Source: Mycobacterium barrassiae
Lineage (GTDB): Bacteria; Actinomycetota; Actinomycetes; Mycobacteriales; Mycobacteriaceae
Assembly (NCBI RefSeq): GCF_025822765.1
Contig: NZ_JACKUK010000023.1
Location: forward strand, 62,001-126,000
Length of the DNA: 64,000 bases
Direction of reading: 5' to 3'
The notes below the pieces were generated by a model. The model was not told the origin of the DNA. It did no database searches and saw only the letters and a list, made by a program, of their open reading frames with translations. Shown one piece after another: positions 24,661 to 63,826 of this stretch; the first letter of the stretch is position 1, and each line of letters opens with the position of its first letter. A program made the translations under genes and the position numbers.

Positions 24661-25728
24661 ATGCCGATCATCCCTCGCGATCCATCGGCGATCACCGCCG
24701 GTTGGCTCAGCGAAGTGCTTAATGCGGACGTGCAGGCCTGCAAGGTCGAACAGATCGCTGTCGGAGTGGGGCTGCTCGGCCGACTGTTTCGCGTCCATCT
24801 CGAGGGCGGGCCCGACCTGCCTGCGACGGTGGTCGTGAAACTCCCCACCCTCGACACTACGGCGCGAGTGAACCTGTGCGAAGAGCTTGACTTCTACCTA
24901 CACGAGGTCCAGTTCTACCAAGACGTCGGCACCGCCAACCCCCTTCCTCCGGCACGACACTACTTCGCCGCCATCGATGGTGACACGCACGACTTCGTGC
25001 TGGTGCTCGAGGATTTGAGGAGGCTGCGCCTCGCAGACCAGCTCGTCGGATGCACCCCCGAGGACGCAGCGACGGTCATCGACGCCATCGCCCGGCACCA
25101 CGCCCATTGGTGGGACAACGACCGGCTCGCCGCGCTGCACTGGTTGCAGCCCTTCACCACACCGCCGTTCATCGAGGTCCTCGTGGCGAACTATCGCGCC
25201 GCATGGCCCAGATTCCTCGACCTCGTGGGATCCGACCTGTCCCCCGCGATGCGTGACTTCGGCGACCGGTTTGCATCGTTGATGCCATGGTTCATCGCGG
25301 AGTTCGCCCGTGAACCCCATACTTTCCTGCACGGCGACTTGAGGCTTGACCAGCTCTTCTTCGCTGTGGAGGACGATGACCCACCGGTGACCGCACTCGA
25401 CTGGCAAATCGCCTCCAGAGGCCGGGGCGCTTGGGATGTCGGCTACTTCATCTGCCAGAGCTTGACTCCCGAAACGCGACGCAACGTCGAGGAAGAGCTT
25501 GTCGAGCGGTACGCAACACGGCTCGCACAGCACGGAATCGCTTACCGCCGTGACGATTTGCGGCGTGACTACCGGACGACCGCGGCGTGGTGCTTCATCT
25601 ACCCGGTCATGGCCGGCGGCCGGATTGAGGTCGCCAACGAACGAAACCTGCAGTTGGCCCACACCATGCTGACTCGGTGTGTGGCGGCGATCGAGGACCA
25701 TGACGGCTTGTCATTGAGACCCGACTGA
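24661..25728 (+). CDS. APH/ecdysteroid-kinase-like phosphotransferase
   Basis: A 355-residue protein-kinase-like phosphotransferase. Visible motifs are TVVVKLP (beta-3 lysine, near 58-64), the Brenner-type motif HGDLRLDQLFF with H224 and D226, and LDWQIASRGRGAWDVGYF with D247. The metal-binding asparagine usually found five residues after D226 is glutamine (Q231). Its stop lies 2 bp before the giant cyclase gene, so the two are surely co-transcribed. It follows a good GGGGAGG site. Substrate unknown. The pair interrupts the aftC-msrB adjacency of M. tuberculosis. Confidence 0.88.
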   Translation: MPIIPRDPSAITAGWLSEVLNADVQACKVEQIAVGVGLLGRLFRVHLEGGPDLPATVVVKLPTLDTTARVNLCEELDFYLHEVQFYQDVGTANPLPPARHYFAAIDGDTHDFVLVLEDLRRLRLADQLVGCTPEDAATVIDAIARHHAHWWDNDRLAALHWLQPFTTPPFIEVLVANYRAAWPRFLDLVGSDLSPAMRDFGDRFASLMPWFIAEFAREPHTFLHGDLRLDQLFFAVEDDDPPVTALDWQIASRGRGAWDVGYFICQSLTPETRRNVEEELVERYATRLAQHGIAYRRDDLRRDYRTTAAWCFIYPVMAGGRIEVANERNLQLAHTMLTRCVAAIEDHDGLSLRPD

Positions 25729-25730
25729 CA

Positions 25731-28700
25731 ATGGCCGAGAACCACCGCCCCTGCGCCACCTGCGGCACGCCGAACGAAGAGGACGCCCGCTTCTGCGAGG
25801 GCTGCGGCGCATCGCTGGCCCGCGTCTGTGCGACGTGCGGCGTCGAAGCGCGTGCGACAGCGCGCTTCTGCCGAGGCTGTGGTGCGCCCCTCGACACGGA
25901 GTCCGCTCGGGTGCCCGGCACCCCCGATGCGGGGCCGGTGCGCAAGACCGTGACGGTCATGTTTGCCGACCTCGCAGGTTCGACGAGTTTCGAGGAACGT
26001 GTCGACGCCGAGACGGCTCGGGAGGTCATCGGCGGCTATCACGACCTTCTGCGTTCGGTGGCTCAGCACCATCGCGCCGGTGTGACCAAATACATCGGTG
26101 ACGGTTTCATGGCCGTCTGGGGGGTGCCCGAGATCCTGCCCGACGACGCGGTGCACGCCGTCGACGCCGCAGTCGAGCTGCAGGAACGCTTCGTGGACCT
26201 GGCGGGCCGGGTCGCCGAAACCCACGGGGTGGAGCTCGCGCTGCGGGTGGCCGTGAACACCGGCGAGGTGGTGGTCGGGGCCGGTGACGCCGACCTCGTC
26301 GGTGATGCGTTGAACGTCGGCGCGCGGCTCGAATCCGAATGTCCGCGCGGCCGCGTCGTCGTCGGCGAGGAGACCTGGCGGGCCACGCGCGGCCACTACG
26401 GGTTCGAGTCTCTAGGCGATGTTCAGGTGAAGGGCCGGACCGCTCCGGTCGCGGTGTACCAATGGGTGGCCCGCCAGGCCGAGGCCGCAGATGCCGCCCC
26501 CTTCGTCGGCCGCGGCGACGAGCTGCGCCGGCTTCAGTCCGCGATGGACGATGCGCTGTCCACTCGGACCGCCCGGTTGGTCACTGTGATCGGCGACCCC
26601 GGGGTGGGCAAGAGCCGATTGGCCGCTGAATACGCGTCAGGTCAGCGCGATGCACGGGTGGTCGAAGCACGGTGTGTGCTCGAAGGCACCGTGGCGCTTG
26701 GCCCACTCGTCGAGGTGCTCCGTGCCAGCGATCTCGAAACCGATGTTCCCCCAGGTATTCCCGAACGTGACCGACTGCTGCGCGACCTCGATGGGTTGGC
26801 AAGCGGGGTGCCTGGATCCGTCGAGGAGAACTTCTGGGCACTGCGCCGGTTCATCGAGGTGCTGGCGACGAGCCAGCCCGTCGTTTTAGTGCTCGACGAC
26901 ATCCAGTGGGCGGACACCCTGTTACTCGACTTCATCGAGCATCTCGTGGAGTGGGTGAAGGACGTTTCGGTCCTGGTGTTGGCGCTCGCCCGGCCGGAAC
27001 TGCGCGACATCCGGCCCGAACTGGTCGCTGTAAGCAGGTGGGCATCCGAAGCTGTTCACCTCGGCGGTCTCGACGCAGGCGCGACCGCAGAACTCGCCGC
27101 CAAGGTACTGGGCACCACCCGGCTGCCGGACGAATTGCTGAACCGCCTCCCGTCATCGACGGGCGGCAATCCCCTGTTCGTACGTGAGCTGATCGGAATG
27201 CTGGCGCACGACGGGGTTCTCGTCGAGGAGCCCCACGGCTGGCGGCTCACCATCGACGTGGACGCCATCTCCATCCCGCCGACGATCCATGCGCTGCTGG
27301 CATCGCGCCTGGAACGACTGGAGGCCGCCGATCGGCGCGTACTCGAGATCGCCTCGGTGGTCGGTAGCGACTTCTCGGTGGGCGCCGTGCGCGCACTCAC
27401 CAATCGGAGTGCAGAGGGAATCAAGTTGTCACTCAACCGGCTTCGTCGACTGGAGCTGGCTCAGCCAAGCGGGGCCTATGTCGGCGACGAACCGGTATGG
27501 CGATTTCACCACGTGCTGATTCGCGACGTGGCGTACCGCCGCCTGTTGAAGTCCGACCGCGCGGATCTGCATGAGCGACTTGCCGACTGGGTAGCTGAGG
27601 GTGGTCAAAGTGTGGCGGTTGACCCCGACGAGATGGTCGCCAGGCATCTCGAAGCCGCCTACACTTACCGAAGCCAGCTCGGCCCCCGCGATGACCAATC
27701 CCGCGACCTGGCCGTCCGATCCGCGCGCCGTTACGCAGCATCCGCGCGTCGTGCCCTCGATCGCGACGAGTTGGTCTCCGCCGGGACGCAAGCGGCCCGC
27801 GGGGCGGCCTTGGCAGCATCCGACGAAGCGCTGCACGCCGATCTGCTCTTGATCGGATGCGAGGCGTTCTTGTCGGCCGGTGACGTGACGGCCGGCGCCC
27901 CGCTCGTCGACGAACTCGAAAGTATCGCCGACGACAACCTGGCGCCATGGGCGACGTGCTACCGCTGCCAGTTCGTCATCTACACCGACCCAGAACGTCT
28001 GCTCGAAGTCGAGGCCCGCCTGCACGACGCCATCGCCGAATTCAGCCGTCGCAAAGACCCTGCGGGACTTGCCAAAGCGCACCGGGTCCGTGCCGGCGCG
28101 CGAGGACGTCTCGGCCGCATCGGCGACAGCGAGATCGACCTTTTCGAGGCACTCATCGCAGCCCGAGAGAGCGGCGACCACCGGCAGATCACCGCTGCAC
28201 TCGGTGCGGCACCCGGTGCCGCGCTGTGGGGACCGAGCCCCGTGCCGAAGGCGGGCGGCCGATGCCTTGACGTGGTGCGCATGCAGCGGATGACCACCGC
28301 GGCACCGTCGCTGGAGGCCACGTCACTACGGCACCTGGCCGTACTCGAACTATTGCGGGGTCGACCGGACAAAGCGCGCACGATGCTGGCCGACGCTCAC
28401 CAGGTGGTCGCCGACCTCGGCCTGCGACACGGTGTGATGGAAACCGAACTCTTCGCGGGAATCATCGAAATGATGGAGGGCGACGCCGTCGCCGCCGAAC
28501 CGCACTTCCGCACGGCGCTGGAAGGTTTGGATGCTCTCGGCGTGGGTGCCGATGCGGGACAAGCCGCCGCATTTCTCGCGCGTTCGGTGCTCGCCCAGGG
28601 GCGGATCGATGAAGCTGACCGGTACGCCACCGAAAGTGAACGTCTGGCCGGTCGCAACCTCAAGACTGCAATCGCCTGGCGCGCCGTGAGGGCCGAAATT

Positions 28701-31700
28701 CTGGCAGCGCAGAGTCGCCATGCTGACGCGGCAGCGATGGCGCGGGAAGCGGTGGCGGTCGCCGCGGGAACCGACCTGGTGCTCGACCACGCTGAGGCCT
28801 GTCTGGCGCTCAGCAGGGTGCTCGCAAGCGTAGGAGACACCAAGGGTGCCGGCGTTGCACGCTCCGATGCCGAGGCTTTATATGTCGCAAAGGAAGTGAC
28901 GGCGCGGGTCGACCGGATCGCAACATCCGACATGCCCTCCCCGCCTGGTGGTGCGGAAGCTGAGTCGTCGCGGCTGGCCCTCGCCAACCGAGCAAGTCGA
29001 AAGATTGATACTGCGTGGCGTGCCTTTCAATCGCACGACATCGACGGTGCGTTGACCGACTTCTCCGACCAGATCGGCTACGACGATCACCGACGATTCA
29101 GTGGTGTTCCGGTCAAGGACATCGCGGAGTTGCACACTGCGACGGCGCGTGCCCGCGAACAATTTCCGTACACTGAGTGGGTAACTCTCGCCGTACGAGG
29201 CGAGCGACTGGAACTGCGCTCGATACGCATGTGGGATGACGCCGGCAACGAATCAACCACCTTCAACGTATTCGAACTCGATGAGCGAGAACACATTCAG
29301 TACTGGGGCCGCTTCGATGACGACGACTTCGAAAGCGCGTATCGCGAACTCGACGAGCGCTACTACGCTGGCGAAGGCGCGCCGTTCGCCGAATCCGGCA
29401 CCGTGGCGACGAACTGGACGCTCGCCGTAAATCGAGCCGACTTCGACACGCTGTTCGGCGAACTCACCGCCAAAGACTTCCACCTCGAAAATCGATCGCG
29501 CTCGGCGTTTCCGGACCGCTCGGCACCGGAGTATCGCACCACCTTGGAAGATCTCGCGGCCATGGTGGTTTCGGCGCGGGCTTGGCCGTCGGTGATGTCA
29601 TGGGTGTCTCCGAATTGGTGCGTAGCTCGTTGCGAGCGAGACGCCGTCGGAAAGGACGGCGAGAAGTACGCGTGGCACTTTCTCATTGCGTTCGAGTTTC
29701 GTGACGGGCGCGTTGCGTCCATGTGCGAGTTCGAGCTTGACGACGAGCACGCGGCCTTCGCCTATGTCGCCGACCGCCTACGTAAGAGCACCAGCAGACT
29801 TCGGATCAATAATCGCGCCAGTGAACTCGCCCAAGCGGCTTCGCAGGCGCTGCAGGCGCATGACGTCGACGCACTTCGTGTCGAACCCGCCGCTCATTTC
29901 GTCTACGACGACAGACGGAGAATTACCGGTGACCCGATTCGTGACGCCGCCGATTTGCATGCCGCGACCGAGCGGATCCTCGACAGTTACCCACACACCG
30001 AGTGGCGCACGATCGCGGTACGCGGCGACCGTCTCGAAATGCACTGGAGTCGCCTATGGGACGACGACGGTAACGAGGCGCGAACTCTCAATGTGATGGA
30101 GTTCGACGGCGCCGGGCGCCTCGAATACTTCGGGCGTTTCGAGGAAGACGATTTCGGCGGCGCTTACCGCGAACTCGATCGGCGCTATTACGCGGGAGAG
30201 GGGGCAGCTTTCGCCGAAGCCGGCGCGGTGGGGACCGAATGGGCAATCGCGGTGAACGACGGCGACTACGTCAAGGCGTTCGGCGAACTCATTGGTCCCG
30301 ACGCCAGCTTCGAGAATCGCTCTCGCTCGGCATTTCCAGATCCCTCGATAATTGCCTTGGGTACCACTTACCAAGATTTGAACACCGTGGACGGGCGGAC
30401 GCGAACATGGCCGTCGGTGCTCTGTCCCTTATCGCCGACCGTGGGCGTCGCCCGCCTCGAGCAGGAAACCACCGGACGCGATGGTGAGCGGTATACGTGG
30501 ACCTGGATCTCCGTGACCGAGATCCAGGGCGGACGGTTTGCATCCGCTTGCCTCTTCGAACTCGACGATGAAGAGGCCGCATTCGCCTATGCCGAAGAGC
30601 GGATGCGGGCGAGCCTAGGCCGACTGTCCGTGACGAACGCGTCATGCGACATCTTGCCCGGTTTCTTCAATGCGCTACGGGCCCACGATGTCGACAGCGC
30701 CCTCGGCCATTACGCAGATGAATACGAGTACGACGATCACCGACGCCTCGGGGGTGCTCCGGTCGTCGGCCGTGACGCGATGCGCGCAGCAATGAAGCGA
30801 CTGCTCGAGGACTATTCACACTTTGAATTCCGGGTGCTCGCGGTCCGCGGTCAGCGCCTGCATCTCGTCTGGAGTCGCCTTTCCGACGACGAGGGGAACG
30901 AGTCCATCACGTACTACGTGGACGAGGTAGACGACAACGGGAAGATCACGTATCACGGCCGCTTCGATGAGGGTGACTTCGAAGCCGCCTACCGCGAACT
31001 CGAACGGCGCTATTACACCGGAGAGGGCGCGGCGTTCGCCGAAAACGGGCTTCCGGCGAGCGATGCGCCGAGGGCGATCAGCCAGGATGACCTCGACACC
31101 CTGTTCGGCAATATCATGTCGGCGGATGCGCGTGTCGAAACCCGCTCCCGCAGAGCCTTTCCCGATCGATCAGCCAGCGAACTTCGCGCCGGCTTCGAAG
31201 CACTCAACACGCTGGTGACCTCGAAGCGCGTGTGGAATTCGGCGGTGGCATGGATTTCTCCGACATGCAGCATCACCCGGCTGGAGCGAGAGGCGATCGG
31301 CATCGACGGTGAGACATATCGATGGTCGATGATTCTCGTCACCGAGCATCGAGGTGGGCTGGTCACTTCGATTTGCGAGTTCGACCCCGACGACGAAGAC
31401 GGCGCGTTCGCCTATGTCGAACAGCGAGTACAGGCTCAGTCCAGCCGGCTTGCGGTCACGAATCAGGCATCGGAAACGGCGGGGCGGTTCTTCGATGCAC
31501 TCCGAGCCCGGGACAGCGAACGCGCCGCCGCCTGCTACTCGGAACAGTTCGTCTACGCCGATCGTCGAAGCCTCAGCGGTGACCCCATTGCGGGCCGTGA
31601 CGGGATGCGTCTGGGAGTCGAGCGCATGCTCGCACAGTTCACCCAGTACGACTTCCGTGTCTTGGCGGTCCGCGGTCAGAATCTGCTCCTCGCGTGGAAT

Positions 31701-33926
31701 TGCGAGTCAGATGCTGACGGAAACACGACTGGCGGGCTCACGGTGTTCGAAGCGGAAAACGGACTGATCACGTATCACGGACGCTTCGACGAGGATGACT
31801 TCAACGGCGCGTACCGCGAACTCGACCGTCGCTACTTCGCAGGTGAGGGCGCCGCGTTCGCACAATCCGGTGCCACTGCCACCGACGCGATAATGGCGTT
31901 GAACACAAGTGATTTCGATCGGCTGCTCGGGGAGCTGTGCACTCCCGACATGCGCGTTGAGAACCGCACGCGGTCAGCGTTCCCGGACCGCTCGATCACC
32001 GACTTGCGCGCCAGCTTCGGACAGCTGGATTCGATGGTCACGTCGACCCGCAGCTGGCTATCATCGCAATACTGGATCACGCCGAACCGTGCCGTGGGCC
32101 GCCTGGAGCGCGACGCCACAGGAGACAGCGGAGAGCAGTACGCGTGGTCCAGAGTTCTGACCATCGAGTTCCGCGACGGCCTGATGGCGTCGATGTGCGA
32201 GTTCGAGGTCGACGACGAGGCTGCCGCCTTCGCGTATATCGACGAAAAAGCACGGCAGCCCCGTAGCCGACTGGCGCTCACTAACCGAAGCGTTGAGTCA
32301 GCTGACAAGCTCTACACCGCGATGAACGCTCGCGACATCGACGCGACGATGGAGACCATCTCGGGCGAGTTCGTGTACGACGACCGCCGGCGGCTCAGCG
32401 GTGATCCCGTCAACAGCAGGGCCGAAGTTCGAGCGGCGTTCAAACGAGTACTGGATCACTACTGCCGATTTGAGAGCCGTATCTTGGCGGTTCGCGGTGA
32501 CCGCCTGCATCTGCACTGGGCGCGCTGGTCAGACGATTCCGGCAACGAAGCGGTCCACCTCCACGTTTTCGGCGTCGACAACGACGGACTGCAGGATTAC
32601 GAGGGCCGCTTCGACGAAGACGATTTCGAAGGTGCCTACCGTGAATTCGAGCACCGCTACTATTCCGGCGAAGGTGCTGCGTTTGCACTCGCCGGCGCAG
32701 TGGCGGCCGACTACGTACTTGCACTCCACCGCATGGACCTCGACACCCTGTTTGGCGAGTTGACCTCGCCCGACTTTCGTCTCGAGAATCGGTCGGGCTC
32801 CGCTTTCAATGACCGCTCGGCGGCCGAATTGCGGGCCAGCTTCGAGGATCTGGACGCGATGATGGCCTCGCAGCAGTTGCGGCATTCTGTGGTGCGTTGG
32901 GTTTCACCGACGGTGATGGTCGCACGCTTCGATCGCGAGGGCGTAGGGCACGGTGGCGAGCGTTACGCATGGAGTCAGATCGACGTCGGCGAAATTCGAG
33001 ACGGATGGTGCACCCGCGCATGCCAATTCGATCTTGAGCAGGAAGAGGCCGCGTTCGCCTACGCCGAAGAATGGGCAGCACAGACAACTAATAGTCGATT
33101 GGCGGTCACTAACCGGTCGTGTGAGCTGACGGTCGCCTTGAACTCGGCCCTGCACGAAACGGATATTGACGCCGTGATGCGGTGCTTTTCGAACTCCCTT
33201 GTGTATGACGACCGCAGACGACTCAGCGGCGATCCAATCCACGACCACGCCGGGTTCCGGACCGCATTCGAGCGAATCTGCGATCAGTACAACCAATTCG
33301 AATACCGCTTCCTCGCCGTTCGTGGCGACCGATTGAACCTGAGCTGGAGCCGGTGGTCGGACAATCCGGGGAACGAGACTGCCTACCTGCATGTGTGCGA
33401 GATCGGCGACGACGGACTAATAGCCTACGAAGGCCGCTTCGACGAGGACGCCTTCGAAGGTGCGTACCGAGAGCTCGAAAGGCGCTTTTACGCCGGCGAG
33501 GGCGCCTCGTTCGCCGAAGCCGGCGCGATAGCGACCGAAGTCGTGACTGCACTCAACCGCGGCGACTTCGACAAGGTATTCGGCGAACTCACCGACCCCG
33601 ACGCCCCTATCGAGAATCGGTCCCGGTTGCCCTTCCCGAACCGCTCGACCAACATGCTCCGCGCCAGCTTCGAGGACTTGGACACCATGGTCGCGTCGAC
33701 GCGGATATGGTTCTCCGCCCTGTGTTGGGTGTCGAACTCGTGGGGCATCGTCCGTTTCGAGAGGGAAGCCGTCGGCAAGGACGGCGAGCAGTACAGGTGG
33801 ACGCATCTCGTCGCGGCCGAGATCCGCAACGGCCGGATCGCGTCGATGTGCGAGTTCGAGGTCGATGACGAGGCTGCGGCCTTCGCCTACGCCGAGGAAC
33901 GGGTGCGTCCGGCGGAAAATCGTTAA
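25731..33926 (+). CDS. Giant class III adenylate cyclase / STAND ATPase with six tandem double-NTF2-like units
   Basis: A 2731-residue protein. In order: two zinc ribbons (Cys 8/11/22/25 and 33/36/47/50); a class III cyclase domain (about 70-250) with metal aspartates D80 and D124, ATP-selecting K120, and the N...R pair in GDALNVGARLE; a STAND/AAA module with Walker A GDPGVGKS (288-295) and Walker B VVLVLDD (384-390); a helical TPR-like region (about 560-1075); and six tandem units at residues 1081, 1356, 1631, 1906, 2180 and 2456. Each unit seems to be two SnoaL/NTF2-like modules. The catalytic set is complete, so cAMP production is likely. The repeats may sense ligands or scaffold partners. 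It is coupled to the upstream kinase gene. Confidence 0.9.
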   Translation: MAENHRPCATCGTPNEEDARFCEGCGASLARVCATCGVEARATARFCRGCGAPLDTESARVPGTPDAGPVRKTVTVMFADLAGSTSFEERVDAETAREVIGGYHDLLRSVAQHHRAGVTKYIGDGFMAVWGVPEILPDDAVHAVDAAVELQERFVDLAGRVAETHGVELALRVAVNTGEVVVGAGDADLVGDALNVGARLESECPRGRVVVGEETWRATRGHYGFESLGDVQVKGRTAPVAVYQWVARQAEAADAAPFVGRGDELRRLQSAMDDALSTRTARLVTVIGDPGVGKSRLAAEYASGQRDARVVEARCVLEGTVALGPLVEVLRASDLETDVPPGIPERDRLLRDLDGLASGVPGSVEENFWALRRFIEVLATSQPVVLVLDDIQWADTLLLDFIEHLVEWVKDVSVLVLALARPELRDIRPELVAVSRWASEAVHLGGLDAGATAELAAKVLGTTRLPDELLNRLPSSTGGNPLFVRELIGMLAHDGVLVEEPHGWRLTIDVDAISIPPTIHALLASRLERLEAADRRVLEIASVVGSDFSVGAVRALTNRSAEGIKLSLNRLRRLELAQPSGAYVGDEPVWRFHHVLIRDVAYRRLLKSDRADLHERLADWVAEGGQSVAVDPDEMVARHLEAAYTYRSQLGPRDDQSRDLAVRSARRYAASARRALDRDELVSAGTQAARGAALAASDEALHADLLLIGCEAFLSAGDVTAGAPLVDELESIADDNLAPWATCYRCQFVIYTDPERLLEVEARLHDAIAEFSRRKDPAGLAKAHRVRAGARGRLGRIGDSEIDLFEALIAARESGDHRQITAALGAAPGAALWGPSPVPKAGGRCLDVVRMQRMTTAAPSLEATSLRHLAVLELLRGRPDKARTMLADAHQVVADLGLRHGVMETELFAGIIEMMEGDAVAAEPHFRTALEGLDALGVGADAGQAAAFLARSVLAQGRIDEADRYATESERLAGRNLKTAIAWRAVRAEILAAQSRHADAAAMAREAVAVAAGTDLVLDHAEACLALSRVLASVGDTKGAGVARSDAEALYVAKEVTARVDRIATSDMPSPPGGAEAESSRLALANRASRKIDTAWRAFQSHDIDGALTDFSDQIGYDDHRRFSGVPVKDIAELHTATARAREQFPYTEWVTLAVRGERLELRSIRMWDDAGNESTTFNVFELDEREHIQYWGRFDDDDFESAYRELDERYYAGEGAPFAESGTVATNWTLAVNRADFDTLFGELTAKDFHLENRSRSAFPDRSAPEYRTTLEDLAAMVVSARAWPSVMSWVSPNWCVARCERDAVGKDGEKYAWHFLIAFEFRDGRVASMCEFELDDEHAAFAYVADRLRKSTSRLRINNRASELAQAASQALQAHDVDALRVEPAAHFVYDDRRRITGDPIRDAADLHAATERILDSYPHTEWRTIAVRGDRLEMHWSRLWDDDGNEARTLNVMEFDGAGRLEYFGRFEEDDFGGAYRELDRRYYAGEGAAFAEAGAVGTEWAIAVNDGDYVKAFGELIGPDASFENRSRSAFPDPSIIALGTTYQDLNTVDGRTRTWPSVLCPLSPTVGVARLEQETTGRDGERYTWTWISVTEIQGGRFASACLFELDDEEAAFAYAEERMRASLGRLSVTNASCDILPGFFNALRAHDVDSALGHYADEYEYDDHRRLGGAPVVGRDAMRAAMKRLLEDYSHFEFRVLAVRGQRLHLVWSRLSDDEGNESITYYVDEVDDNGKITYHGRFDEGDFEAAYRELERRYYTGEGAAFAENGLPASDAPRAISQDDLDTLFGNIMSADARVETRSRRAFPDRSASELRAGFEALNTLVTSKRVWNSAVAWISPTCSITRLEREAIGIDGETYRWSMILVTEHRGGLVTSICEFDPDDEDGAFAYVEQRVQAQSSRLAVTNQASETAGRFFDALRARDSERAAACYSEQFVYADRRSLSGDPIAGRDGMRLGVERMLAQFTQYDFRVLAVRGQNLLLAWNCESDADGNTTGGLTVFEAENGLITYHGRFDEDDFNGAYRELDRRYFAGEGAAFAQSGATATDAIMALNTSDFDRLLGELCTPDMRVENRTRSAFPDRSITDLRASFGQLDSMVTSTRSWLSSQYWITPNRAVGRLERDATGDSGEQYAWSRVLTIEFRDGLMASMCEFEVDDEAAAFAYIDEKARQPRSRLALTNRSVESADKLYTAMNARDIDATMETISGEFVYDDRRRLSGDPVNSRAEVRAAFKRVLDHYCRFESRILAVRGDRLHLHWARWSDDSGNEAVHLHVFGVDNDGLQDYEGRFDEDDFEGAYREFEHRYYSGEGAAFALAGAVAADYVLALHRMDLDTLFGELTSPDFRLENRSGSAFNDRSAAELRASFEDLDAMMASQQLRHSVVRWVSPTVMVARFDREGVGHGGERYAWSQIDVGEIRDGWCTRACQFDLEQEEAAFAYAEEWAAQTTNSRLAVTNRSCELTVALNSALHETDIDAVMRCFSNSLVYDDRRRLSGDPIHDHAGFRTAFERICDQYNQFEYRFLAVRGDRLNLSWSRWSDNPGNETAYLHVCEIGDDGLIAYEGRFDEDAFEGAYRELERRFYAGEGASFAEAGAIATEVVTALNRGDFDKVFGELTDPDAPIENRSRLPFPNRSTNMLRASFEDLDTMVASTRIWFSALCWVSNSWGIVRFEREAVGKDGEQYRWTHLVAAEIRNGRIASMCEFEVDDEAAAFAYAEERVRPAENR
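28971..29795 (+). repeat. Tandem unit 1 of the giant cyclase (275 codons)
   Basis: Codes for residues 1081-1355. Contains the recurring landmarks YDDHRRFSG, GRFDDDDFESAYREL, NRSRSAFPDRS and CEFELDDE in the order shared by all six units. Confidence 0.85.
29796..30620 (+). repeat. Tandem unit 2 (275 codons)
   Basis: Codes for residues 1356-1630. Landmarks are YDDRRRITGDPI, GRFEEDDFGGAYREL, NRSRSAFPDPS and CLFELDDEEAAFAYAEER. Confidence 0.85.
30621..31445 (+). repeat. Tandem unit 3 (275 codons)
   Basis: Codes for residues 1631-1905. Landmarks are YDDHRRLGGAPV, GRFDEGDFEAAYREL, TRSRRAFPDRS and CEFDPDDEDGAFAYVEQR. Confidence 0.85.
31446..32267 (+). repeat. Tandem unit 4 (274 codons)
   Basis: Codes for residues 1906-2179. 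Landmarks are YADRRSLSGDPI, GRFDEDDFNGAYREL, NRTRSAFPDRS and CEFEVDDEAAAFAYIDEK. Confidence 0.85.
32268..33095 (+). repeat. Tandem unit 5 (276 codons)
   Basis: Codes for residues 2180-2455. Landmarks are YDDRRRLSGDPV, GRFDEDDFEGAYREF, NRSGSAFNDRS and CQFDLEQEEAAFAYAEEW. Confidence 0.85.
33096..33923 (+). repeat. Tandem unit 6 (276 codons)
   Basis: Codes for residues 2456-2731, the C-terminus. Landmarks are YDDRRRLSGDPI, GRFDEDAFEGAYREL, NRSRLPFPNRS and CEFEVDDEAAAFAYAEER. Confidence 0.85.
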
Positions 33927-34421: not shown

Positions 34422-34733
34422 TTACCCCGGGTATACCGCGAACTCGGCCTGGTCCTCGGTGTTCGCGACGCACGTGAACAGCAGCGGCGCCGTCATCGCG
34501 TTGCCGGAATAGCAGGTGAACGGCCCGATCTCCTGATATTTGTCGCCGTTGAGGTCGTATTTGGCGGCGTAGTCCGCCGCGGTGACACAGTCGATGTCGC
34601 CGGCGGTGATCTGGACGGCCTGCCCGTTGCGCGGGGGGCACTGCTCACCCGTCGACGGTTGCGCGGCCGCACTCGGCGCCGCCGCGAGCGCGACCAACGG
34701 CAGCGCCGCGGCCACCAATGCCTTGATGCTCAT
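34422..34733 (-). CDS. Small secreted protein with paired cysteines
   Basis: A 103-residue exported protein with a signal peptide (residues 1-24, ending SAAAQ). The mature part contains four cysteines (QCPP, DCVT, TCYS, TCVA) and YDLNGDKYQEIGPF. Many mycobacteria encode similar small secreted proteins of unknown role. The ATG at 34733 begins exactly at the signal peptide; a longer frame to 34811 adds unconserved sequence. No ribosome site is evident. Confidence 0.75.
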   Translation of the reverse strand: MSIKALVAAALPLVALAAAPSAAAQPSTGEQCPPRNGQAVQITAGDIDCVTAADYAAKYDLNGDKYQEIGPFTCYSGNAMTAPLLFTCVANTEDQAEFAVYPG

Positions 34734-35064
34734 GGCCCAATGATGCTCGGCAGCCCTCGAACCTGTCCCCGGATTCACGAGGACCCAGACAGATCGCGAT
34801 TTCGGCAACATTCGCGATCTGCCCGCAGTCTCGGCGAGATGACGGTCCTGGCTCGACGACGTCGGTGATACCGAGTCGGACTACATCCGGTTGTAACCGT
34901 ACGGCGAGAATTCGGCCGCGATCGCACCATAGCGTTACGTCCGTCGCGGTGTCGGCACTCGGATGCAGAATCCGGGTATAGATCCACCCTTTCGGGGCAG
35001 AGAAACGATCGCGAGTGAGGAACTGACGCGGCACACGACGAGGTCTCTAGGCCCGCGTGCCCGC
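34734..35064. other. 331-bp gene-free stretch with a hairpin repeat
   Basis: Apart from the inverted repeat at 34790-34821 and its GCAGTCTCG tail, I see no gene. Frames through this region are arginine-rich and lack ribosome sites. It separates the secreted-protein gene start from the malic enzyme stop. Confidence 0.5.
34790..34821. repeat. Hairpin CAGATCGCGA/TCGCGATCTG with dispersed tail
   Basis: A perfect 10-bp inverted repeat with a 12-nt loop. The right arm plus the following CCCGCAGTCTCGGCG recurs with three mismatches at 41997-42020 (TCGCGATCTG-TGC-GCAGTCTCG-A-CG), which indicates a dispersed intergenic repeat. Confidence 0.6.
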
Positions 35065-36720
35065 TCAGGTCGGCGAGTACTCCGGAAGCCAACGCACCTC
35101 GTCGATGCGAGCCGCCAATTCCTCATCGCTGCGCTTCGGCGCGACACCGTCGGCCACAGCCTGACGACCGACTGCGAGCGCGATACGCACCGCAATATCC
35201 GGAACCTCCGTCCACGACGGAAGCAGCGGCGCGTCCGGGTCCGTGAGCGCGGGCGACGCATCGCCGAGACTGGCCGCGGCGGCCCGCATCATCTCGTCCG
35301 TGACCCGCGTTGCCTGCGCCGCGGTCACGGCCAACCCCATCGCCGGGAAGATGTATGCGTTGTTGCACTGCGCGACCGGCCGCTCCACGCCGTTGCGCCG
35401 CAGCGGTGCAAACGGTGAACCTGTCGCAATGAGCGCCCTCCCTCCGGTCCACTCGTCCAGCTCCGCCGGGTGCGCCTCGGCCCGGCTGGTCGGGTTCGAC
35501 AACGGGAAGATGATCGGCCGCTCCGTCTTGGCCGCCATCTCGCGCACGATCTCCTCGGTGAACGCACCCGTCGCCGTCGAAAGACCCAGCAGCACACCGA
35601 CGTCGACGTGATGCACCACATCGGCCAGCTGGGCGGGTCCGGACAGGCCCCAGTCCCCCACGATGTCCGCAGGCTTGGCGAACACCCGCTGCCCGTCCGA
35701 CAGATCGGTGCGGTCGTCCGTCAGCAGCCCATTGACGTCGACGACCCAGATCCGCGACAGGGCTTCGGCTTCGGACAGTCCCTGCGCGACCATCTCGCGC
35801 TTCACCATGTTCAGCACGCCGATGCCCGCCGAGCCCGCACCCAGCATCACCACCTGCTGCTGCGACAGCGGGCGCCCCGCGATGTTCGCCGCACCGTGCA
35901 GGGCGCCGAGCGCCACGGCCGCGGTGCCCTGGATGTCGTCGTTGAAGGTCAGCAGCTTGTCGCGATAACGCTCCAGAATCGGCTCGGCGTGCGCGGTCGC
36001 GAAATCCTCCCACTGCAATAGGACGTCGGGCAGTTCCTCGTGAACGGCGGTCACGAACTCGTCGATGAACGCGTAGTACTCGTCGTCCCCGATCCGGCGG
36101 TGGCGCCACCCGAGGTAGTGCGGGTTCTCCAGCAGCTCGACGTTGTCGGTGCCCACGTCGAGCACGATCGGCAGCGTGCGCGCCGGGTCGATGCCGCCGA
36201 TGAGCGTGTACAGCGAGAGCTTGCCGATGGGGATGCCCATTCCGCCGATCCCCTGATCGCCGAGTCCGAGGATCCGTTGACCGTCGGTCACGACGATGAC
36301 GTCGACATCGCGTCGCCCCGTGGGGCGGTTGCGCAGCACTTCTCGGATGCACTCCCGATCGGGATACGACACAAAAAGCCCGCGGGGCCTGCGGTAGATC
36401 TCGCTGAACCGCTGACAGGCCTCCCCGACGGTCGGGGTGTACACGATCGGCATGGTTTCGGCGATGTGATCGCGCAGCACCCGATAGAACAGCGTCTCGT
36501 TGCGGTCTTGCAGGCCGCGCAGATAGATGTGTTGATCCAGACCCTCACGGCGAGTACTGAATTCGTGCCAGCTGTGCTCGGCCTGCTCGCCGAGAGTCTT
36601 CTCCGCGGTGGGCAGCAGTCCCAGCAGACCGAACTTTCGACGCTCGGCGTGGGTGAAGGCGGTGCCCTTGGTGGTCAACGCATCGAACAGCAAGTCCTGT
36701 CCGGTTTTCTGTTCTGCCAC
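35065..36720 (-). CDS. mez: NAD-dependent malic enzyme
   Basis: A 551-residue enzyme converting malate to pyruvate and CO2 with NAD. Signatures are the tyrosine region IVYTPTVGEACQ (near 92-103), ILGLGDQGIGGMGIPIGKL (near 151-169), the metal site FNDDIQGTAAVALGAL (near 249-264) and the Rossmann GAGSAGIG (near 287). Length matches the large (ScfA/MaeA-type) subfamily. It is not next to hemQ in M. tuberculosis, so it is an insertion or rearrangement relative to that genome. Confidence 0.95.
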   Translation of the reverse strand: MAEQKTGQDLLFDALTTKGTAFTHAERRKFGLLGLLPTAEKTLGEQAEHSWHEFSTRREGLDQHIYLRGLQDRNETLFYRVLRDHIAETMPIVYTPTVGEACQRFSEIYRRPRGLFVSYPDRECIREVLRNRPTGRRDVDVIVVTDGQRILGLGDQGIGGMGIPIGKLSLYTLIGGIDPARTLPIVLDVGTDNVELLENPHYLGWRHRRIGDDEYYAFIDEFVTAVHEELPDVLLQWEDFATAHAEPILERYRDKLLTFNDDIQGTAAVALGALHGAANIAGRPLSQQQVVMLGAGSAGIGVLNMVKREMVAQGLSEAEALSRIWVVDVNGLLTDDRTDLSDGQRVFAKPADIVGDWGLSGPAQLADVVHHVDVGVLLGLSTATGAFTEEIVREMAAKTERPIIFPLSNPTSRAEAHPAELDEWTGGRALIATGSPFAPLRRNGVERPVAQCNNAYIFPAMGLAVTAAQATRVTDEMMRAAAASLGDASPALTDPDAPLLPSWTEVPDIAVRIALAVGRQAVADGVAPKRSDEELAARIDEVRWLPEYSPT

Positions 36721-54434: not shown

Positions 54435-54495
54435 GTTGACTCTGCGCTCAGGCCGGGATTTCGCGCGCTATGACGGCGTGAGCGCAGAATCAACG
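54435..54495. repeat. Palindromic intergenic repeat, copy 2
   Basis: A 61-bp element between the convergent DUF4242 and TrmA-like genes. The 16-nt arms GTTGACTCTGCGCTCA and TGAGCGCAGAATCAAC pair with one mismatch. It is nearly identical to 51341-51400, so it is a mobile or duplicated hairpin, probably acting as a terminator here. Confidence 0.8.
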
Positions 54496-54504
54496 TCGGC
54501 GAGC

Positions 54505-55725
54505 TCAGCGGGTCAGTACGGCGACGCACTCGACATGGTGCGTCAACGGAAACGAGTCGAACACGCGCAGCTCCTCGACCGCATACCCGTGGCCTCGGTA
54601 CAGCCCGACATCACGGGCGAACGACGCTGCCTCACAACCGATGTGAATCACCCGCGGCACCTCGGCGTCCGCCAGCAGGTCGATCACCTCGCGGCCTGCG
54701 CCGGTCCGCGGCGGATCCAGCACCGCGACGTTGGGCCGGTGCCGCTGCGCGCTCAGCGCCCGTCGCACGGAATCGGTGACCACCGACACCCAGCCCAGGT
54801 CCGCCAGTGCCGTGCGCGCCGACCGCGACGCGCCGCGTGACGTGTCGACCGTGACGACCTTCCCCGTCTCACCGACGGCCTGCGCCAGCACCGCGGCGAA
54901 AACTCCTGCACCACCGTACAAATCCCATGCGGTCATCCCTGGCTGCAGCTGCGCCCAGTCGGCCACCAGATCGCTGTACATCTGCGGGGCGTCGCGGTGC
55001 GCCTGCCAGAACGCCGTCACCGGCACCCGCCACACCCGATCGCCGACGCGCTGCACCGCCTCGTACTCCCCCTCGATCACATGCGTGGTGGTTTTGCGGC
55101 CCACCCGGGGCCCCGCCTGCACGACATGCCGTTCGCCGTCGTCGTCGATCGCGACGTGGACGTGGGCGCCGTGCGGCCAGACCCAGTCGTGGATGCCGTC
55201 GAGCATGCCGGACGGCAGCTGCGCGCAGCCGAGATCGGTGACCAGCTCAGCGCTGTGATAGCGATGGAATCCCGCACGCCCCTGCGGCGAGGTGTCCAGC
55301 CGCACGCGGGTCCGCCAACCGGTGACCCCGCCATCGCCGACCGGTTCGGCCGTCGCGTCCTCCTCGGCTCGCCATTCGTAGCCGCCCAGCCGGACCAGCT
55401 GGTTGGCGACCACCGCACCCTTCAGCCGCCGCGCCGCCGCCGGCTCGGCGAACGCCAGATCGCAGCAGCCCGCGCCGTCCACACCGGCGATCGGGCAGAT
55501 CGAGTCGACGCGGTCCGCGGACGGCTCGATGACCTCGACCACGTCGGCGTGCCGGTATGACCCGTGATCGGACACCACGCGGGCACGGACCGTCTCGCCG
55601 GGCAACGCATACCGAACGAACACCACCCGACCGTCATGGCGCGCGACACAGCTGCCGCCGTTCGCAGGCGGTCCCACGGTCAGGGTGAGTTCCGATGGTT
55701 CGTCGGTCGTCCCGTCGACGGTCAA
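54505..55725 (-). CDS. TrmA/RumA-family 5-methyluridine RNA methyltransferase (Rv2689c homologue)
   Basis: A 406-residue SAM-dependent enzyme. An N-terminal TRAM-like beta domain (near 5-60) is followed by cysteines of a possible Fe-S site (CPIAGVDGAGCCDL, near 70), the SAM motif WDLYGGAGVFAAVLAQ (near 264), the catalytic DPPRTGAGREV (near 339) and HIGCEAASFARDVG with the nucleophile cysteine (near 362). The start is TTG at 55725, which overlaps the APC permease stop (TTGA). Whether the target is tRNA or rRNA is not known. Confidence 0.88.
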   Translation of the reverse strand: MTVDGTTDEPSELTLTVGPPANGGSCVARHDGRVVFVRYALPGETVRARVVSDHGSYRHADVVEVIEPSADRVDSICPIAGVDGAGCCDLAFAEPAAARRLKGAVVANQLVRLGGYEWRAEEDATAEPVGDGGVTGWRTRVRLDTSPQGRAGFHRYHSAELVTDLGCAQLPSGMLDGIHDWVWPHGAHVHVAIDDDGERHVVQAGPRVGRKTTTHVIEGEYEAVQRVGDRVWRVPVTAFWQAHRDAPQMYSDLVADWAQLQPGMTAWDLYGGAGVFAAVLAQAVGETGKVVTVDTSRGASRSARTALADLGWVSVVTDSVRRALSAQRHRPNVAVLDPPRTGAGREVIDLLADAEVPRVIHIGCEAASFARDVGLYRGHGYAVEELRVFDSFPLTHHVECVAVLTR

Positions 55726-57719
55726 TCCAGAAAGCCCCTGCGCGCGTCGCCGGGAGCGGACTGTGGCTGCAGCGTCTTGAGACGCTCCGACGAACTCAAC
55801 TGCCACGGCACCGATGTCACCATCACATTCGGCTCGAACAGCAGCCTGCCCTTGAGCCGAAGCGCGCTCTGGTTGTGCAGCACCTGCTCCCACCAGTGAC
55901 CGACGACGTATTCGGGAATGAACACGGTCACGACGGTGCGCGGCGACTCCTTGGTGACACGTTTGACGTAATCGAGCACGGGGCGCGTGATCTCCCGGTA
56001 GGGCGAGGCGATCACCTTCAGCGGCACACTGATGTCGCTGTTCTCCCATTTGTGCACGAGCGCGCGGGTTTCCGCGTCATCGACGCTGACCGTGATCGCC
56101 TCCAGCACGTCCGGCCTGGTCGCCCTGGCGTAAGCCAATGCCCGCATCGTCGGCAGGTGCAACTTCGACACCAGCACGATCGCGTGGTTGCGGCTCGGCA
56201 GCACCATGCCGTCGACTTCGGCGGCGGCCTGCTCCTCCAGTTCGCGCGCCACGGTGTCGTAGTGCTTCTGGATCAACTTCATGATGACGAAGAGGGCGAC
56301 CATCGCCAGGATCGCGATCCATGCACCGACTACGAACTTCGTCACCACCACGATGATCAAAACGGTTCCGGTGCAGAGGAATCCGACGGTGTTGATCACC
56401 CGGGAGCGCTGCATCTTGGCGCGCACGGCGGGCTCGGTCTCGGTGCGCAACAGTCGTGTCCAGTGCCGAACCATGCCGATCTGGCTCAGCGTGAACGACA
56501 CGAAAACCCCGACGATGTACAGCTGGATCAGCGCGGTCACCTCCGCGCGGAACGCCATGACGAAGGCGACGGCGGCCAGCGCCAGGAACAGGATGCCGTT
56601 GGAGAACGCCAACCGGTCGCCGCGCGTGTGCAGCTGCCGCGGCAGGTAGCGGTCCTGCGCCAGAATCGATGCCAGCACGGGGAACCCGTTGAAGGCCGTG
56701 TTGGCGGCGAGTATCAGGATCAGGGCCGTGACGCCGGCGATCAGATAGAGACCGATCGGAAAGTCATGGAAGACCGCGTCGGCAAGCTGGGCGATCAGGG
56801 TCTTCTGGTGGTAATCAGGCGGAGCACCGGACAACTGCGTCGCTGGATGCTCGACGATCTGCACGCCGGTCTCCTTGGCCAGCATGATGATTCCCATGAA
56901 CAACGTCACCGAGATCGCGCCAAGCAGGGCCAGCGTCGTCGCCGCGTTGCGCGACTTCGGTTTCCGGAACGCGGGCACACCGTTGCTGATGGCCTCGACC
57001 CCGGTCAGCGCCGCACTGCCGGACGAGAAGGCCCGCGCGACAAGGAATACCAACGCGAACCCCAGGATTTCGCCGTGGTCGGGGTGCATCTCGAAATCGG
57101 CCGACTCGGCCCTCAGTTCGTTGCCGAGAACCACGATCTGGAAGAAGCCCCAGCCGAGCATGACGAAGATGCCGATCATGAACGCATAGGTGGGAATGGC
57201 GAATGCCGTTCCGGACTCGCGAATTCCGCGGAGGTTGATCGACGCCAGGATCATGATCGCGATGACGGCGAACAACACTTTGTGCTGGTTGATGAACGGC
57301 ACCGCCGATCCGATGTTCGACATCGCCGAGGACATCGACACCGCGACGGTCAACACGTAGTCGACCAGCAGCGCGCTCGCGACCGTCAGTCCCGCGGTCG
57401 GGCCGAGGTTAGTGGTGACCACCTCGTAGTCGCCGCCGCCCGACGGGTACGCGTGCACGTTCTGCCGGTAGCTGGCGATCACCACCAGCATGACCCCCGC
57501 GACAGCCAGCCCGATCCACGGCGTCATCGCATAGGCGCTCAGCCCCGCCACCGACAGCACCAGGAAGATCTCCTCCGGCGCGTAGGCCACCGAGGACAAG
57601 GCGTCGGAGGCGAACACCGGGAGCGCGATCCGCTTGGGCAGAAGGGTGTGCGACAGCCTGTCGCTGCGGAACGGCCTGCCGAGAACCAACCGCCGCGTGA
57701 CGGTCGAAAGCTTGGACAC
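55722..57719 (-). CDS. APC-superfamily permease (Rv2690c homologue)
   Basis: A 665-residue membrane protein with about 12 helices followed by a 165-residue cytoplasmic domain. The start MSKLSTVTRRLVLGRPFRSD (GTG) matches the M. tuberculosis protein. ASDALSSVAYAPEEI and GGDYEVVTTNLGPTAGLTVA are typical of the KUP/KimA-like APC branch. KimA-type proteins import K+, and the divergent neighbours are the TrkA-type K+ regulators CeoB/CeoC, so K+ transport is a good guess but not shown. Confidence 0.88.
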   Translation of the reverse strand: MSKLSTVTRRLVLGRPFRSDRLSHTLLPKRIALPVFASDALSSVAYAPEEIFLVLSVAGLSAYAMTPWIGLAVAGVMLVVIASYRQNVHAYPSGGGDYEVVTTNLGPTAGLTVASALLVDYVLTVAVSMSSAMSNIGSAVPFINQHKVLFAVIAIMILASINLRGIRESGTAFAIPTYAFMIGIFVMLGWGFFQIVVLGNELRAESADFEMHPDHGEILGFALVFLVARAFSSGSAALTGVEAISNGVPAFRKPKSRNAATTLALLGAISVTLFMGIIMLAKETGVQIVEHPATQLSGAPPDYHQKTLIAQLADAVFHDFPIGLYLIAGVTALILILAANTAFNGFPVLASILAQDRYLPRQLHTRGDRLAFSNGILFLALAAVAFVMAFRAEVTALIQLYIVGVFVSFTLSQIGMVRHWTRLLRTETEPAVRAKMQRSRVINTVGFLCTGTVLIIVVVTKFVVGAWIAILAMVALFVIMKLIQKHYDTVARELEEQAAAEVDGMVLPSRNHAIVLVSKLHLPTMRALAYARATRPDVLEAITVSVDDAETRALVHKWENSDISVPLKVIASPYREITRPVLDYVKRVTKESPRTVVTVFIPEYVVGHWWEQVLHNQSALRLKGRLLFEPNVMVTSVPWQLSSSERLKTLQPQSAPGDARRGFLD

Positions 57720-57794
57720 GAGTGCCAAGAGTAAGCCCAGCGGAGAATGGTTGTAGCGTTCCGTGTGCGCAGGGTCGACGGAAAGGACCTTCAG

Positions 57795-58469
57795 GTGCGA
57801 GTAGTGGTGATGGGATGCGGCCGTGTCGGCGCGTCGCTGTCGGACAGTCTGGCCCGCATCGGCCACGACGTCGCGGTCATCGACCGGGACAGCACCGCAT
57901 TTCACCGCCTGTCACCCGAGTTTCCCGGCGAGCGGGTACTCGGCATGGGCTTCGACCGCGACGTGCTGCTGCGGGCGGGAATCGAAGAGGCGGGCGCGTT
58001 CGCGGCGGTGTCCTCTGGCGACAACTCCAACATCATCTCGGCCCGGGTAGCGCGGGAGACGTTCGGCGTCGAGCGGGTGGTGGCCCGTATCTACGACGCC
58101 AAACGCGCCGCGGTCTACGAACGGCTGGGCATCCCGACCGTGGCCACCGTGCCGTGGACCACCGACCGCCTGCTCAACGTGCTGACCCGCGAGACCGAGA
58201 CCACCAAGTGGCGCGACCCGACGGGAAATGTCGGGGTCACCGAATTGGCCCTGCATGAGGGCTGGGTCGGCCGTCGGCTCACCGAGCTGGAGACCGCGAC
58301 CGGTGGCCGGGTGGCGTTCCTGATCCGGTTCGGCGCGGGCCTGCTGCCCGACGCGAAAACCGTGATCCAGGCCAGTGATCAGGTGTACATGGCAGCGATC
58401 GCCGGGCATATCGCCGAGGCGCTGGCCATCGCGGCGCTGCCACCGAGCGAGGACATCGAAGCGCAATGA
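57795..58469 (+). CDS. ceoB: TrkA-family potassium uptake protein CeoB
   Basis: A 224-residue cytosolic RCK protein. The NAD-binding motif VVVMGCGRVGASLSD is at residues 3-17 and a C-terminal TrkA-C domain at about 140-215. Such proteins gate K+ channels or transporters in response to nucleotides. The GTG at 57795 follows GAAAGGA. It overlaps ceoC (ATGA) and is divergent from the APC permease. Homologue of Rv2691. Confidence 0.94.
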   Translation: MRVVVMGCGRVGASLSDSLARIGHDVAVIDRDSTAFHRLSPEFPGERVLGMGFDRDVLLRAGIEEAGAFAAVSSGDNSNIISARVARETFGVERVVARIYDAKRAAVYERLGIPTVATVPWTTDRLLNVLTRETETTKWRDPTGNVGVTELALHEGWVGRRLTELETATGGRVAFLIRFGAGLLPDAKTVIQASDQVYMAAIAGHIAEALAIAALPPSEDIEAQ

Positions 58470-59131
58470 GGGTCGCCATCGCCGGGGCCGGCGCGGTTGG
58501 CCGCTCCATCGCCCGCGAGCTCGTCGAAAGCCATGAGGTGACGCTGCTCGAACGCAATCCCGACCACATCGACGTCGACGCGATCCCTGCCGCGCAGTGG
58601 CGCCTCGGCGACGCGTGTGAGCTCACCATGCTGGAGTCGGTGAAGCTCGAGGAGTTCGACGTCGTGATCGCCGCGACGGGCGACGACAAGGTCAACGTGG
58701 TGGTCAGCCTGCTGGCCAAGACCGAGTTCGCCGTCCCGCGCGTGGTGGCCCGCGTCAACGACCCCCGCAACGAATGGCTGTTCGACGAGAACTGGGGTGT
58801 CGACGTGGCCGTGTCCACCCCGCGCATGCTGGCCTCACTGGTCGAGGAAGCCGTCGCCGTCGGCGATCTGGTGCGGCTGATGGAGTTCCGCAAGGGCCAG
58901 GCGAATCTGGTGGAGATCACGCTTCCCGACGACACGCCGTGGGGCGGTAAGCCCGTCAAACGCCTCGATCTCCCCCGCGACGCGACGCTGGTGACGATTC
59001 TGCGTGGCCCACGGGTGATCGTGCCCGAGGGCGACGAACCGCTCGAGGGCGGCGACGAGCTGCTCTTCGTGGCGGTCACCGAGGTCGAGGAACGTCTGCA
59101 GCAACTGCTGCTCAACCCCGAGGCGCGCTGA
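58466..59131 (+). CDS. ceoC: TrkA-family potassium uptake protein CeoC
   Basis: A 221-residue second RCK protein. MRVAIAGAGAVGRSIARELV begins the NAD-binding fold and the C-terminal TrkA-C domain ends with LLFVAVTEVEERL. With CeoB it presumably forms the regulatory ring of a K+ transporter, plausibly the neighbouring APC permease. Homologue of Rv2692. No Trk membrane subunit is nearby. Confidence 0.94.
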   Translation: MRVAIAGAGAVGRSIARELVESHEVTLLERNPDHIDVDAIPAAQWRLGDACELTMLESVKLEEFDVVIAATGDDKVNVVVSLLAKTEFAVPRVVARVNDPRNEWLFDENWGVDVAVSTPRMLASLVEEAVAVGDLVRLMEFRKGQANLVEITLPDDTPWGGKPVKRLDLPRDATLVTILRGPRVIVPEGDEPLEGGDELLFVAVTEVEERLQQLLLNPEAR

Positions 59132-59134
59132 CAC

Positions 59135-61693: not shown

Positions 61694-61828
61694 GGCCTCT
61701 CCTGACCGTCGCAGATCAATCGTTGATCTATACCCCGAACAACGCCACGTTAGACCTCTTGGTTCCGTTCTGCCACGTGGGGTGGGGTCGACGCGCCGAA
61801 CGATCTGTGAGCAGGGCACCATCATGTG

Positions 61829-62527: not shown

Positions 62528-62528
62528 G

Positions 62529-62571
62529 TTGTGTGCGTTCGGTTGCGCTGAGCGCTCGCGAACGCACACAA
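62529..62571. terminator. Bidirectional hairpin terminator
   Basis: A perfect 13-bp stem TTGTGTGCGTTCG/CGAACGCACACAA with a 17-nt loop fills the gap between the convergent hydrolase and DUF3710 genes. The stem ends in A/T on both sides, giving a short U-run in each direction. Confidence 0.85.
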
Positions 62572-62575
62572 ACCG

Positions 62576-63801: not shown

Positions 63802-63826
63802 GACGACAGAGATTACTCTTGGCCGC

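Follow-up and report, generated by a model that had tools for sequence, protein, structure and literature searches.

A variable array of paired NTF2-like modules on a STAND nucleotide cyclase within a hypervariable island of Mycobacterium barrassiae

What purpose could a long C-terminal array of tandem repeats serve on a nucleotide cyclase? The question is raised by P0001, a 2,731-residue protein of Mycobacterium barrassiae encoded on a 64,000-nucleotide stretch of contig NZ_JACKUK010000023.1 (positions 62,001 to 126,000, forward strand), hereafter the window, whose own numbering is used unless a locus is named. P0001 joins a class III cyclase domain, a STAND-type ATPase and TPR-like helical repeats to six tandem units, each a pair of predicted NTF2-like modules, and the array appears to be a rapidly changing device for molecular recognition, coupled to a switch of the cyclic AMP (cAMP) type. 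The array comprises the last 1,651 residues of the protein, from residue 1081 to the final codon. The gene and its units are as follows.

25731..33926, plus strand: whole cyclase-STAND-array gene P0001, an open frame of 2,731 codons (2,731 residues)
28971..29795, plus strand: unit 1 (modules A and B), residues 1081-1355, from unit alignment and profile
29796..30620, plus strand: unit 2, residues 1356-1630, from unit alignment and profile
30621..31445, plus strand: unit 3, residues 1631-1905, from unit alignment and profile
31446..32267, plus strand: unit 4, residues 1906-2179, from unit alignment and profile
32268..33095, plus strand: unit 5, residues 2180-2455, from unit alignment and within the AlphaFold model
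33096..33923, plus strand: unit 6, residues 2456-2731, from unit alignment and within the AlphaFold model

The sequence-only reading of this locus had described six linker-free units of 275, 275, 275, 274, 276 and 276 codons at nucleotides 28971..33923, and alignment reproduces these coordinates and lengths exactly. Pairwise identity among the units ranges from 44.2 to 54.7% over 274-276 columns. When P0001 is compared with itself, identity is highest at an offset of 275 (31%) and at multiples of 275, with lesser peaks at offsets 134 and 141 (10-11%, against 6-9% at the remaining offsets from 130 to 145). These two offsets add up to 275 and thus reflect a half-repeat. A profile made from the same six units recovers every one of them in the source genome at E 6e-137 to 1e-145, which rules out chance. 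The division of each unit into two half-modules, also part of the sequence-only reading, is borne out by the predicted fold, by Pfam SnoaL_2 (E 9.5e-47 on P0001, with 8 stretches passing a limit of E 1) and by comparison of first-half with second-half profiles (eight rows each, six of them from the window), which gives E 0.0005 with a probability of only 31% and 20% identity. BLASTP of one pair of halves gives no significant match (E 0.069). MAFFT placed gaps wrongly in the twelve halves, and fold and profile comparison was therefore used in its place. Twelve modules is a sound reading of the array.

The AlphaFold model of units 5-6 displays four complete alpha+beta cones of the NTF2/ketosteroid isomerase (KSI) type, with a predicted local distance difference test score (pLDDT) of 94, while units 1-4 are assigned to this fold through their 44-55% identity. 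Together with the SnoaL_2 matches and the Foldseek neighbours, these cones uphold the NTF2-like fold proposed from sequence. The structural neighbours of the modules are mostly small-molecule pockets. A sequence search of a single unit against PDB yields no match at E up to 1; a 103-row two-unit profile yields five chains at E <= 0.01, led by SnoaL-like and epoxide-hydrolase proteins. In module A, D39, R41 and A74-x-R76-G77 are almost invariant both in window-type units (125 units) and in a second array family described below (141 units); D39 is conserved at 98% and 99% in the two families, and Glu predominates at position 102 (91% and 87%). The most variable site of window-type units, position 101 (entropy 3.75), is flanked by the conserved positions 100 and 102. 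The M. barrassiae genome holds 48 SnoaL_2 matches at E <= 0.001, 37 of them outside its two array proteins.

The region N-terminal to the array contains four features.

25752..25883, plus strand: double zinc ribbon, residues 8-51 (Pfam DZR E 2.6e-9, Zn_Ribbon_1 E 7e-10)
25944..26444, plus strand: class III nucleotide cyclase domain, residues 72-238 (Pfam E 2.5e-21)
26499..26960, plus strand: STAND-type AAA_16 ATPase, residues 257-410 (Pfam AAA_16 E 3.5e-23)
27681..28889, plus strand: TPR-like helical superhelix, residues about 651-1053 (AlphaFold helices; weak Pfam TPR_12)

In class III adenylyl cyclases two Asp residues bind metal, a Lys/Asp pair contacts adenine and an Asn/Arg pair stabilizes the transition state. 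All six are present in P0001 as D80, K120, D124, D188, N195 and R199; the protein thus has the catalytic residues of a class III adenylyl cyclase and is predicted to make cAMP from ATP. P0001 also displays the layout of a STAND NTPase, a P-loop ATPase with Walker A (GDPGVGKS) and Walker B (LVLDDIQWAD) motifs followed by helical repeats, and the top Foldseek match of the model of residues 1-1080 is the STAND protein 6mfv (E 2.7e-13). The TPR-like block is assigned through matches to TPR proteins; its pLDDT is mostly 77-96, dipping to 50-61 at residues 831-860, and Pfam TPR_12 matches weakly (E 6e-4, under the family cut-off). The cyclase and STAND parts named in the sequence-only reading are upheld by domains, motifs and model, together with a TPR core.

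How common is this arrangement? One scan of species genomes yields 23 loci, all titled Mycobacterium or Mycolicibacterium. In the 19 loci with core and units in one frame, window-type relatives carry 3 to 11 unit matches, partial units included (L030, at a contig end, has partial first and last units, L040 a partial last unit, and L048 and L049 one half-module plus three units each); L031 and L043, whose core is split between frames, and L044 and L050, with no core in the stretch, are outside this count. Core or array is spread over more than one reading frame in L031, L041, L043 and L044, through decay or sequencing error. Whole units number 5, 5, 6 and 9 in four further window-type loci. The one with nine, L110, retains at residues 3081-3109 of its open reading frame a 29-residue tail scrap between the seventh and eighth whole units, as the loss of a unit would leave. 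Six units are one state of a variable family.

Of the 118 genomes in the genus sample, 52 contain a match and 9 a strong window-type match (E < 1e-90). The order sample has matches in 22 of 298 genomes, of which 20 belong to that genus and the other two each show just one weak match, to a single module. In the phylum sample 7 of 396 genomes match at E 1e-4, namely the outgroup G434 and six genomes of the genus; at most 21, 8 and 6 candidates per genome were scored in the three samples, respectively. Strong matches are confined to one genus in these samples, save for G434, where the core matches at 917 bits (residues 7-1064) and is followed by five modules. Each of the five scores higher against profile A than against profile B, with no A-B pairing, and the 17-kb stretch around the gene contains no ecdysteroid-kinase-like (EcKL) gene. 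The outgroup actinobacterial protein at L115:6551-12181 thus displays the core shared with the window and five A-type modules that are not paired. Searched by itself, the STAND/TPR part of the core is found in 42 of the 396 phylum genomes at E 1e-20, 36 of them outside the genus, and among these 36 only the frame of G434 exceeds 1,566 codons (contig ends may truncate some of the frames). The probable order of events is that a widespread core, about 1,070 residues long, acquired A-type modules first, and that the fixed pairing of A and B emerged and multiplied afterwards in the mycobacterial line.

A second, distant array family is represented by L051 in the M. barrassiae genome (4,280 codons) and by 20 fetched stretches from 19 other genomes, picked by hand from among the 52 matching genomes. 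In both of the proteins scanned, Trans_reg_C and BTAD are followed by a cyclase domain and AAA_16, with weak TPR matches. The 21 stretches contain 4 to 13 whole units of 265 residues, preceded in 20 of them by a lone half-module. In the cyclase domain the catalytic Lys is replaced by Arg in 19 of the 19 rows covering it (L097 and L092 do not cover it). L051:2446-15285 (minus strand, contig C12) encodes Trans_reg_C, BTAD, the cyclase with this replacement, AAA_16, nine whole units and three half-unit matches, and a 5,260-codon frame of this family on contig 14 of G103 (L082) is the longest seen here.

The sequence-only reading knew of no described cyclase with this layout. No description was recognised among the papers listed on such cyclases, STAND proteins and arrays (open-licence, mostly titles and abstracts), and the portion searched of an actinobacterial cyclase survey (PMC2447327) makes no mention of SnoaL or NTF2. 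Units of this type are frequent within one genus, and the layout is not a lone oddity. The DNA-binding sister family, together with the constant EcKL neighbour and the hypervariable island presented next, are additions to that reading.

24661..25728, plus strand: EcKL gene (ecdysteroid-kinase-like, phosphotransferase fold), 355 residues (Pfam EcKL E 5e-14)
24661..33926, no strand assigned: hypervariable island from early EcKL to the cyclase stop, from nucleotide identity and synonymous divergence (dS) against G039

EcKL is the first gene of a two-gene cassette, its stop lying 2 nt ahead of the cyclase ATG. It is found directly upstream and on the same strand in all 25 core-bearing loci (21 of 21 named loci and the four further ones). 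The distance from its stop to the projected cyclase start is 2 nt in 17 of the 25; in the other 8 an ATG, of unchecked reading frame, overlaps the EcKL stop or starts no more than 3 nt after it. Nine loci (L034, L040, L042, L043 and L045-L049) contain EcKL with none of the five other window neighbours tested present in the stretch, and no EcKL lies beside second-family genes at E 1e-15. All 22 rows of the EcKL alignment carry the motifs HGDLRLDQ and LDWQ unchanged.

The island emerges from comparison with the nearest relative found, G039, identified by the best matches of GT87 and AmOx. The G039 sequence runs collinear to the window, with 0.85-0.95 identity per kb (92.0% over 54438-64000), and identity falls to 0.63-0.79 at about 24.7-34 kb. 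In 150-bp bins the left edge lies within the first part of EcKL; at the right edge identity is back to 0.91 at the cyclase stop, with intergenic bins 34350 and 34650-35099 low again. In five flanking genes dS is 0.20-0.31 and identity 94-97% (for one gene over just 149 codons), against dS 0.90 and 68% for EcKL, 1.02 and 84% for the cyclase core, and 0.89-2.62 and 51-68% for the units at best match. Elsewhere, window:42390-45178 and window:50601-54437 have no counterpart in the collinear G039 region, and near window 15452 G039 contains roughly 1.1 kb of additional sequence. GT87 dS is < 0.6 in 92 of the 120 pairs among 16 loci (pairs are not independent here or in the other dS comparisons), and in these 92 dS exceeds that of GT87 for EcKL in 92 of 92, for the units (median best match) in 92 of 92 and for the core in 89 of 92. 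The downstream control AmOx also exceeds GT87 in 54 of 58 pairs, yet just at 0.58 versus 0.40. As GT87 is thus a low-dS baseline, AmOx serves as a second one (13 loci, 78 pairs), under which dS is higher in 78 pairs for EcKL and in 75 for the core, with medians of 1.10 and 1.11 against 0.63 for AmOx. Among L032, L033 and L035 EcKL is raised at least 1.26-fold and most units are raised, while the core lies under the flank level (ratios 0.72-0.81); the core therefore does not owe its divergence to a synonymous rate that is high in general. EcKL and the cyclase gene form a hypervariable island that differs far more than the surrounding genes.

Divergence is also uneven within the gene. When L032 is compared with L035, the orthologous units range from 0.09 to 0.55 in their proportion of synonymous differences, with 0.24 in the core (chi-square p 1e-35; seven of nine units, the remaining two without clear partner). 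This proportion ranges from 0.25 to 0.51 between L033 and L037 (five of eight units, p 1e-16) and, in the second family, from 0.05 to 0.39 between L051 and L091 (all nine whole units, p 1e-27); these tests assume codon independence. Such unevenness of synonymous divergence between units of one gene indicates unit-level exchange. Concerted evolution was considered and set aside, the best match of a unit lying in another protein for 117 of 125 units and in its own protein for 8. Positive selection at the amino-acid level is likewise unsupported as main driver, the ratio of nonsynonymous to synonymous divergence of best-matching units in eight locus pairs being 0.11-0.36 (pairwise, not site-wise). 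Recombination between diverged alleles, both of units and of cassettes, is the probable cause of the mosaic divergence, rather than positive selection at the protein level alone.

What, then, could the array recognise? The reading to which we give an even chance is that a ligand-sensor array gates the STAND switch and the cyclase, with EcKL as a ligand-modifying partner. P0001 would be a soluble receptor with many pockets. Each of its 275-residue units would be a fixed pair of cones of the ketosteroid isomerase type, A and B, that would most likely bind small hydrophobic or polycyclic molecules and not convert them. Binding to the C-terminal array would be relayed through the TPR superhelix to the STAND ATPase, where a rearrangement or oligomerisation driven by ATP would pair up two class III cyclase domains and so switch on the production of cAMP. 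EcKL would modify the ligand or serve as co-receptor. The array would diversify as whole units are gained, lost and exchanged and as the whole EcKL-cyclase cassette is replaced between lineages. NTF2-like domains, catalytic or not, are described in a part of PMC3924330 as tending to bind small molecules in a common pocket.

Several points weigh against this sensor reading, in which the pocket is predicted from fold and sequence. Strands 80-88 and 94-103 of module A clearly alternate between conserved and variable residues, yet over all ten strands the pattern is not significant (390 and 294 of 5,000 permutations reach it); by PDB alignment the variable residues of strand 94-103 map to the pocket side and those of strand 80-88 to the opposite side, and a simple claim of a variable pocket face is weakened on both counts. 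The conserved D39, R41 and acid at 102 of module A could instead mean catalysis. Kinases of the EcKL/APH type have an HGD catalytic loop with a Mg-binding Asn and a metal Asp in D-W/F-x; EcKL has Gln at the Asn position of its invariant HGDLRLDQ, leaving its activity uncertain. The N-terminal model is modest (pLDDT 78, predicted template-modelling score 0.52) and does not fix the geometry from ATPase to array. Owing to the Lys-to-Arg replacement, cAMP may not be the output of the second family, and the dS control for the island consists of the window and flanking genes.

A rather unlikely alternative, differing from the ligand-sensor reading mainly in what is recognised, would make the array an NLR-like protein-recognition surface, a bait or adhesion platform in a conflict system (phage, competitor or self) whose cyclase or DNA-binding head signals alarm. 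The combination of STAND, TPR and variable C-terminal repeats with swappable N-terminal heads is consistent with it, as is a hypervariable cassette between conserved flanks. The Pycsar antiphage system contains a PycC-type cyclase with an adjoining Pyc effector gene, and PADLOC PycC models match the cyclase domain of P0001 at E 7e-13; however, these matches (PADLOC run on P0001 and EcKL alone) are confined to the generic cyclase domain, and of ten neighbouring open reading frames compared with Pfam four have no match and six no recognised defence effector. The pocket-bearing structural neighbours of the modules and the small-molecule-kinase-type fold of EcKL also argue against protein recognition. 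NTF2 is named as a ligand-binding domain in other conflict systems in a part of PMC7159879.

Were the modules instead to dimerise through their sheets, a filament or cluster could concentrate the cyclase domains and leave the pockets unused. NTF2 folds are often oligomerisation domains, the fixed A-B tandem resembles a built-in dimer, and the tandem-cone proteins Lsd19 and MonBI lead the Foldseek list, but both are enzymes and superpose with a root-mean-square deviation (rmsd) of 11.7-13.2; a pure scaffold predicts neither a hypervariable mosaic array nor an acid at D39 kept in both families, making it an improbable account. Very improbable is an array of active SnoaL, KSI or epoxide-hydrolase-type enzymes. 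D39 aligns with an Asp of 6p3l (labelled 'SnoaL-like domain protein') that is Asn in its near-twin 6p44; we take both structures to be ketosteroid isomerases and this Asp to be catalytic, and the Glu at 102 fits the same view. Limonene epoxide hydrolase uses an Arg-Asp-Asp triad; in an alignment to 5aif, weak elsewhere, the Asp of the epoxide-hydrolase motif WRDYFD, presumably its catalytic residue, is matched by non-Asp residues. The KSI active site is given in a part of PMC3500292 as Tyr16 of the first helix, Asp40 as general base and Asp103. Neither family has a conserved Tyr at unit positions 7-20 (the first helix of module A, site of Tyr16) or a conserved Asp on module A strand 94-103, where the mapping of Asp103 could be off. 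With the base-like acid kept and the Tyr not, binding fits better than isomerase chemistry. The scaffold and enzyme-array readings explain less than the ligand-sensor reading.

More tentatively, the ligand-sensor reading may extend to a mycobacterial NLR-like chemical recognition system, with arrays that reach a dozen two-pocket units or more, unit shuffling and EcKL-receptor cassette exchange, a ligand-processing kinase and two outputs (cAMP or direct DNA binding), its repertoire evolving by recombination of pocket modules for chemical conflict, immunity or self-recognition. The array would add a new class of sensor repeat to STAND receptors. A large mycobacterial signalling gene diverges between relatives far beyond its neighbours, with whole-unit turnover, and a single protein could, provided that its pockets bind ligands, sense many molecules simultaneously and relay them to cAMP signalling or transcription.

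Among known systems, P0001 can be set beside STAND NTPases with C-terminal repeat sensors (the TPR-STAND protein 6mfv, MalT 8bob and NLR-like proteins), sharing AAA_16 Walker A/B motifs, helical repeats and an N-terminal effector; in contrast to these, it bears a long tandem array of paired KSI-type cones C-terminal to the TPR. Its best NCBIfam match is the TOMM system kinase/cyclase fusion protein (TIGR03903; residues 64-1013, E 2.9e-50), although P0001 is no member (171.2 bits against a cut-off of 705.75) and the model match contains no array. Single-domain SnoaL_2, ketosteroid isomerase and Rv0760c proteins differ from the modules, which occur in tandem A-B pairs and lack a conserved Tyr in helix 1. 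The tandem epoxide hydrolases Lsd19 and MonBI, top Foldseek matches of the two-unit model, likewise have two cones per chain, but these two-domain enzymes share about 14% identity with it, and their rmsd over both cones indicates a different arrangement. The second family resembles SARP/BTAD regulators of the AfsR-like kind, from which it differs in its extra cyclase domain and long cone array. Array-less STAND-cyclase-type proteins of other Actinomycetota share the STAND/TPR core of P0001 at 27-38% identity (48% in G434; 491 residues searched); their frames span 463 to 1,566 codons, many at 1,050-1,180, close to the point where the array of P0001 starts, and only that of G434 (1,877 codons) is longer.
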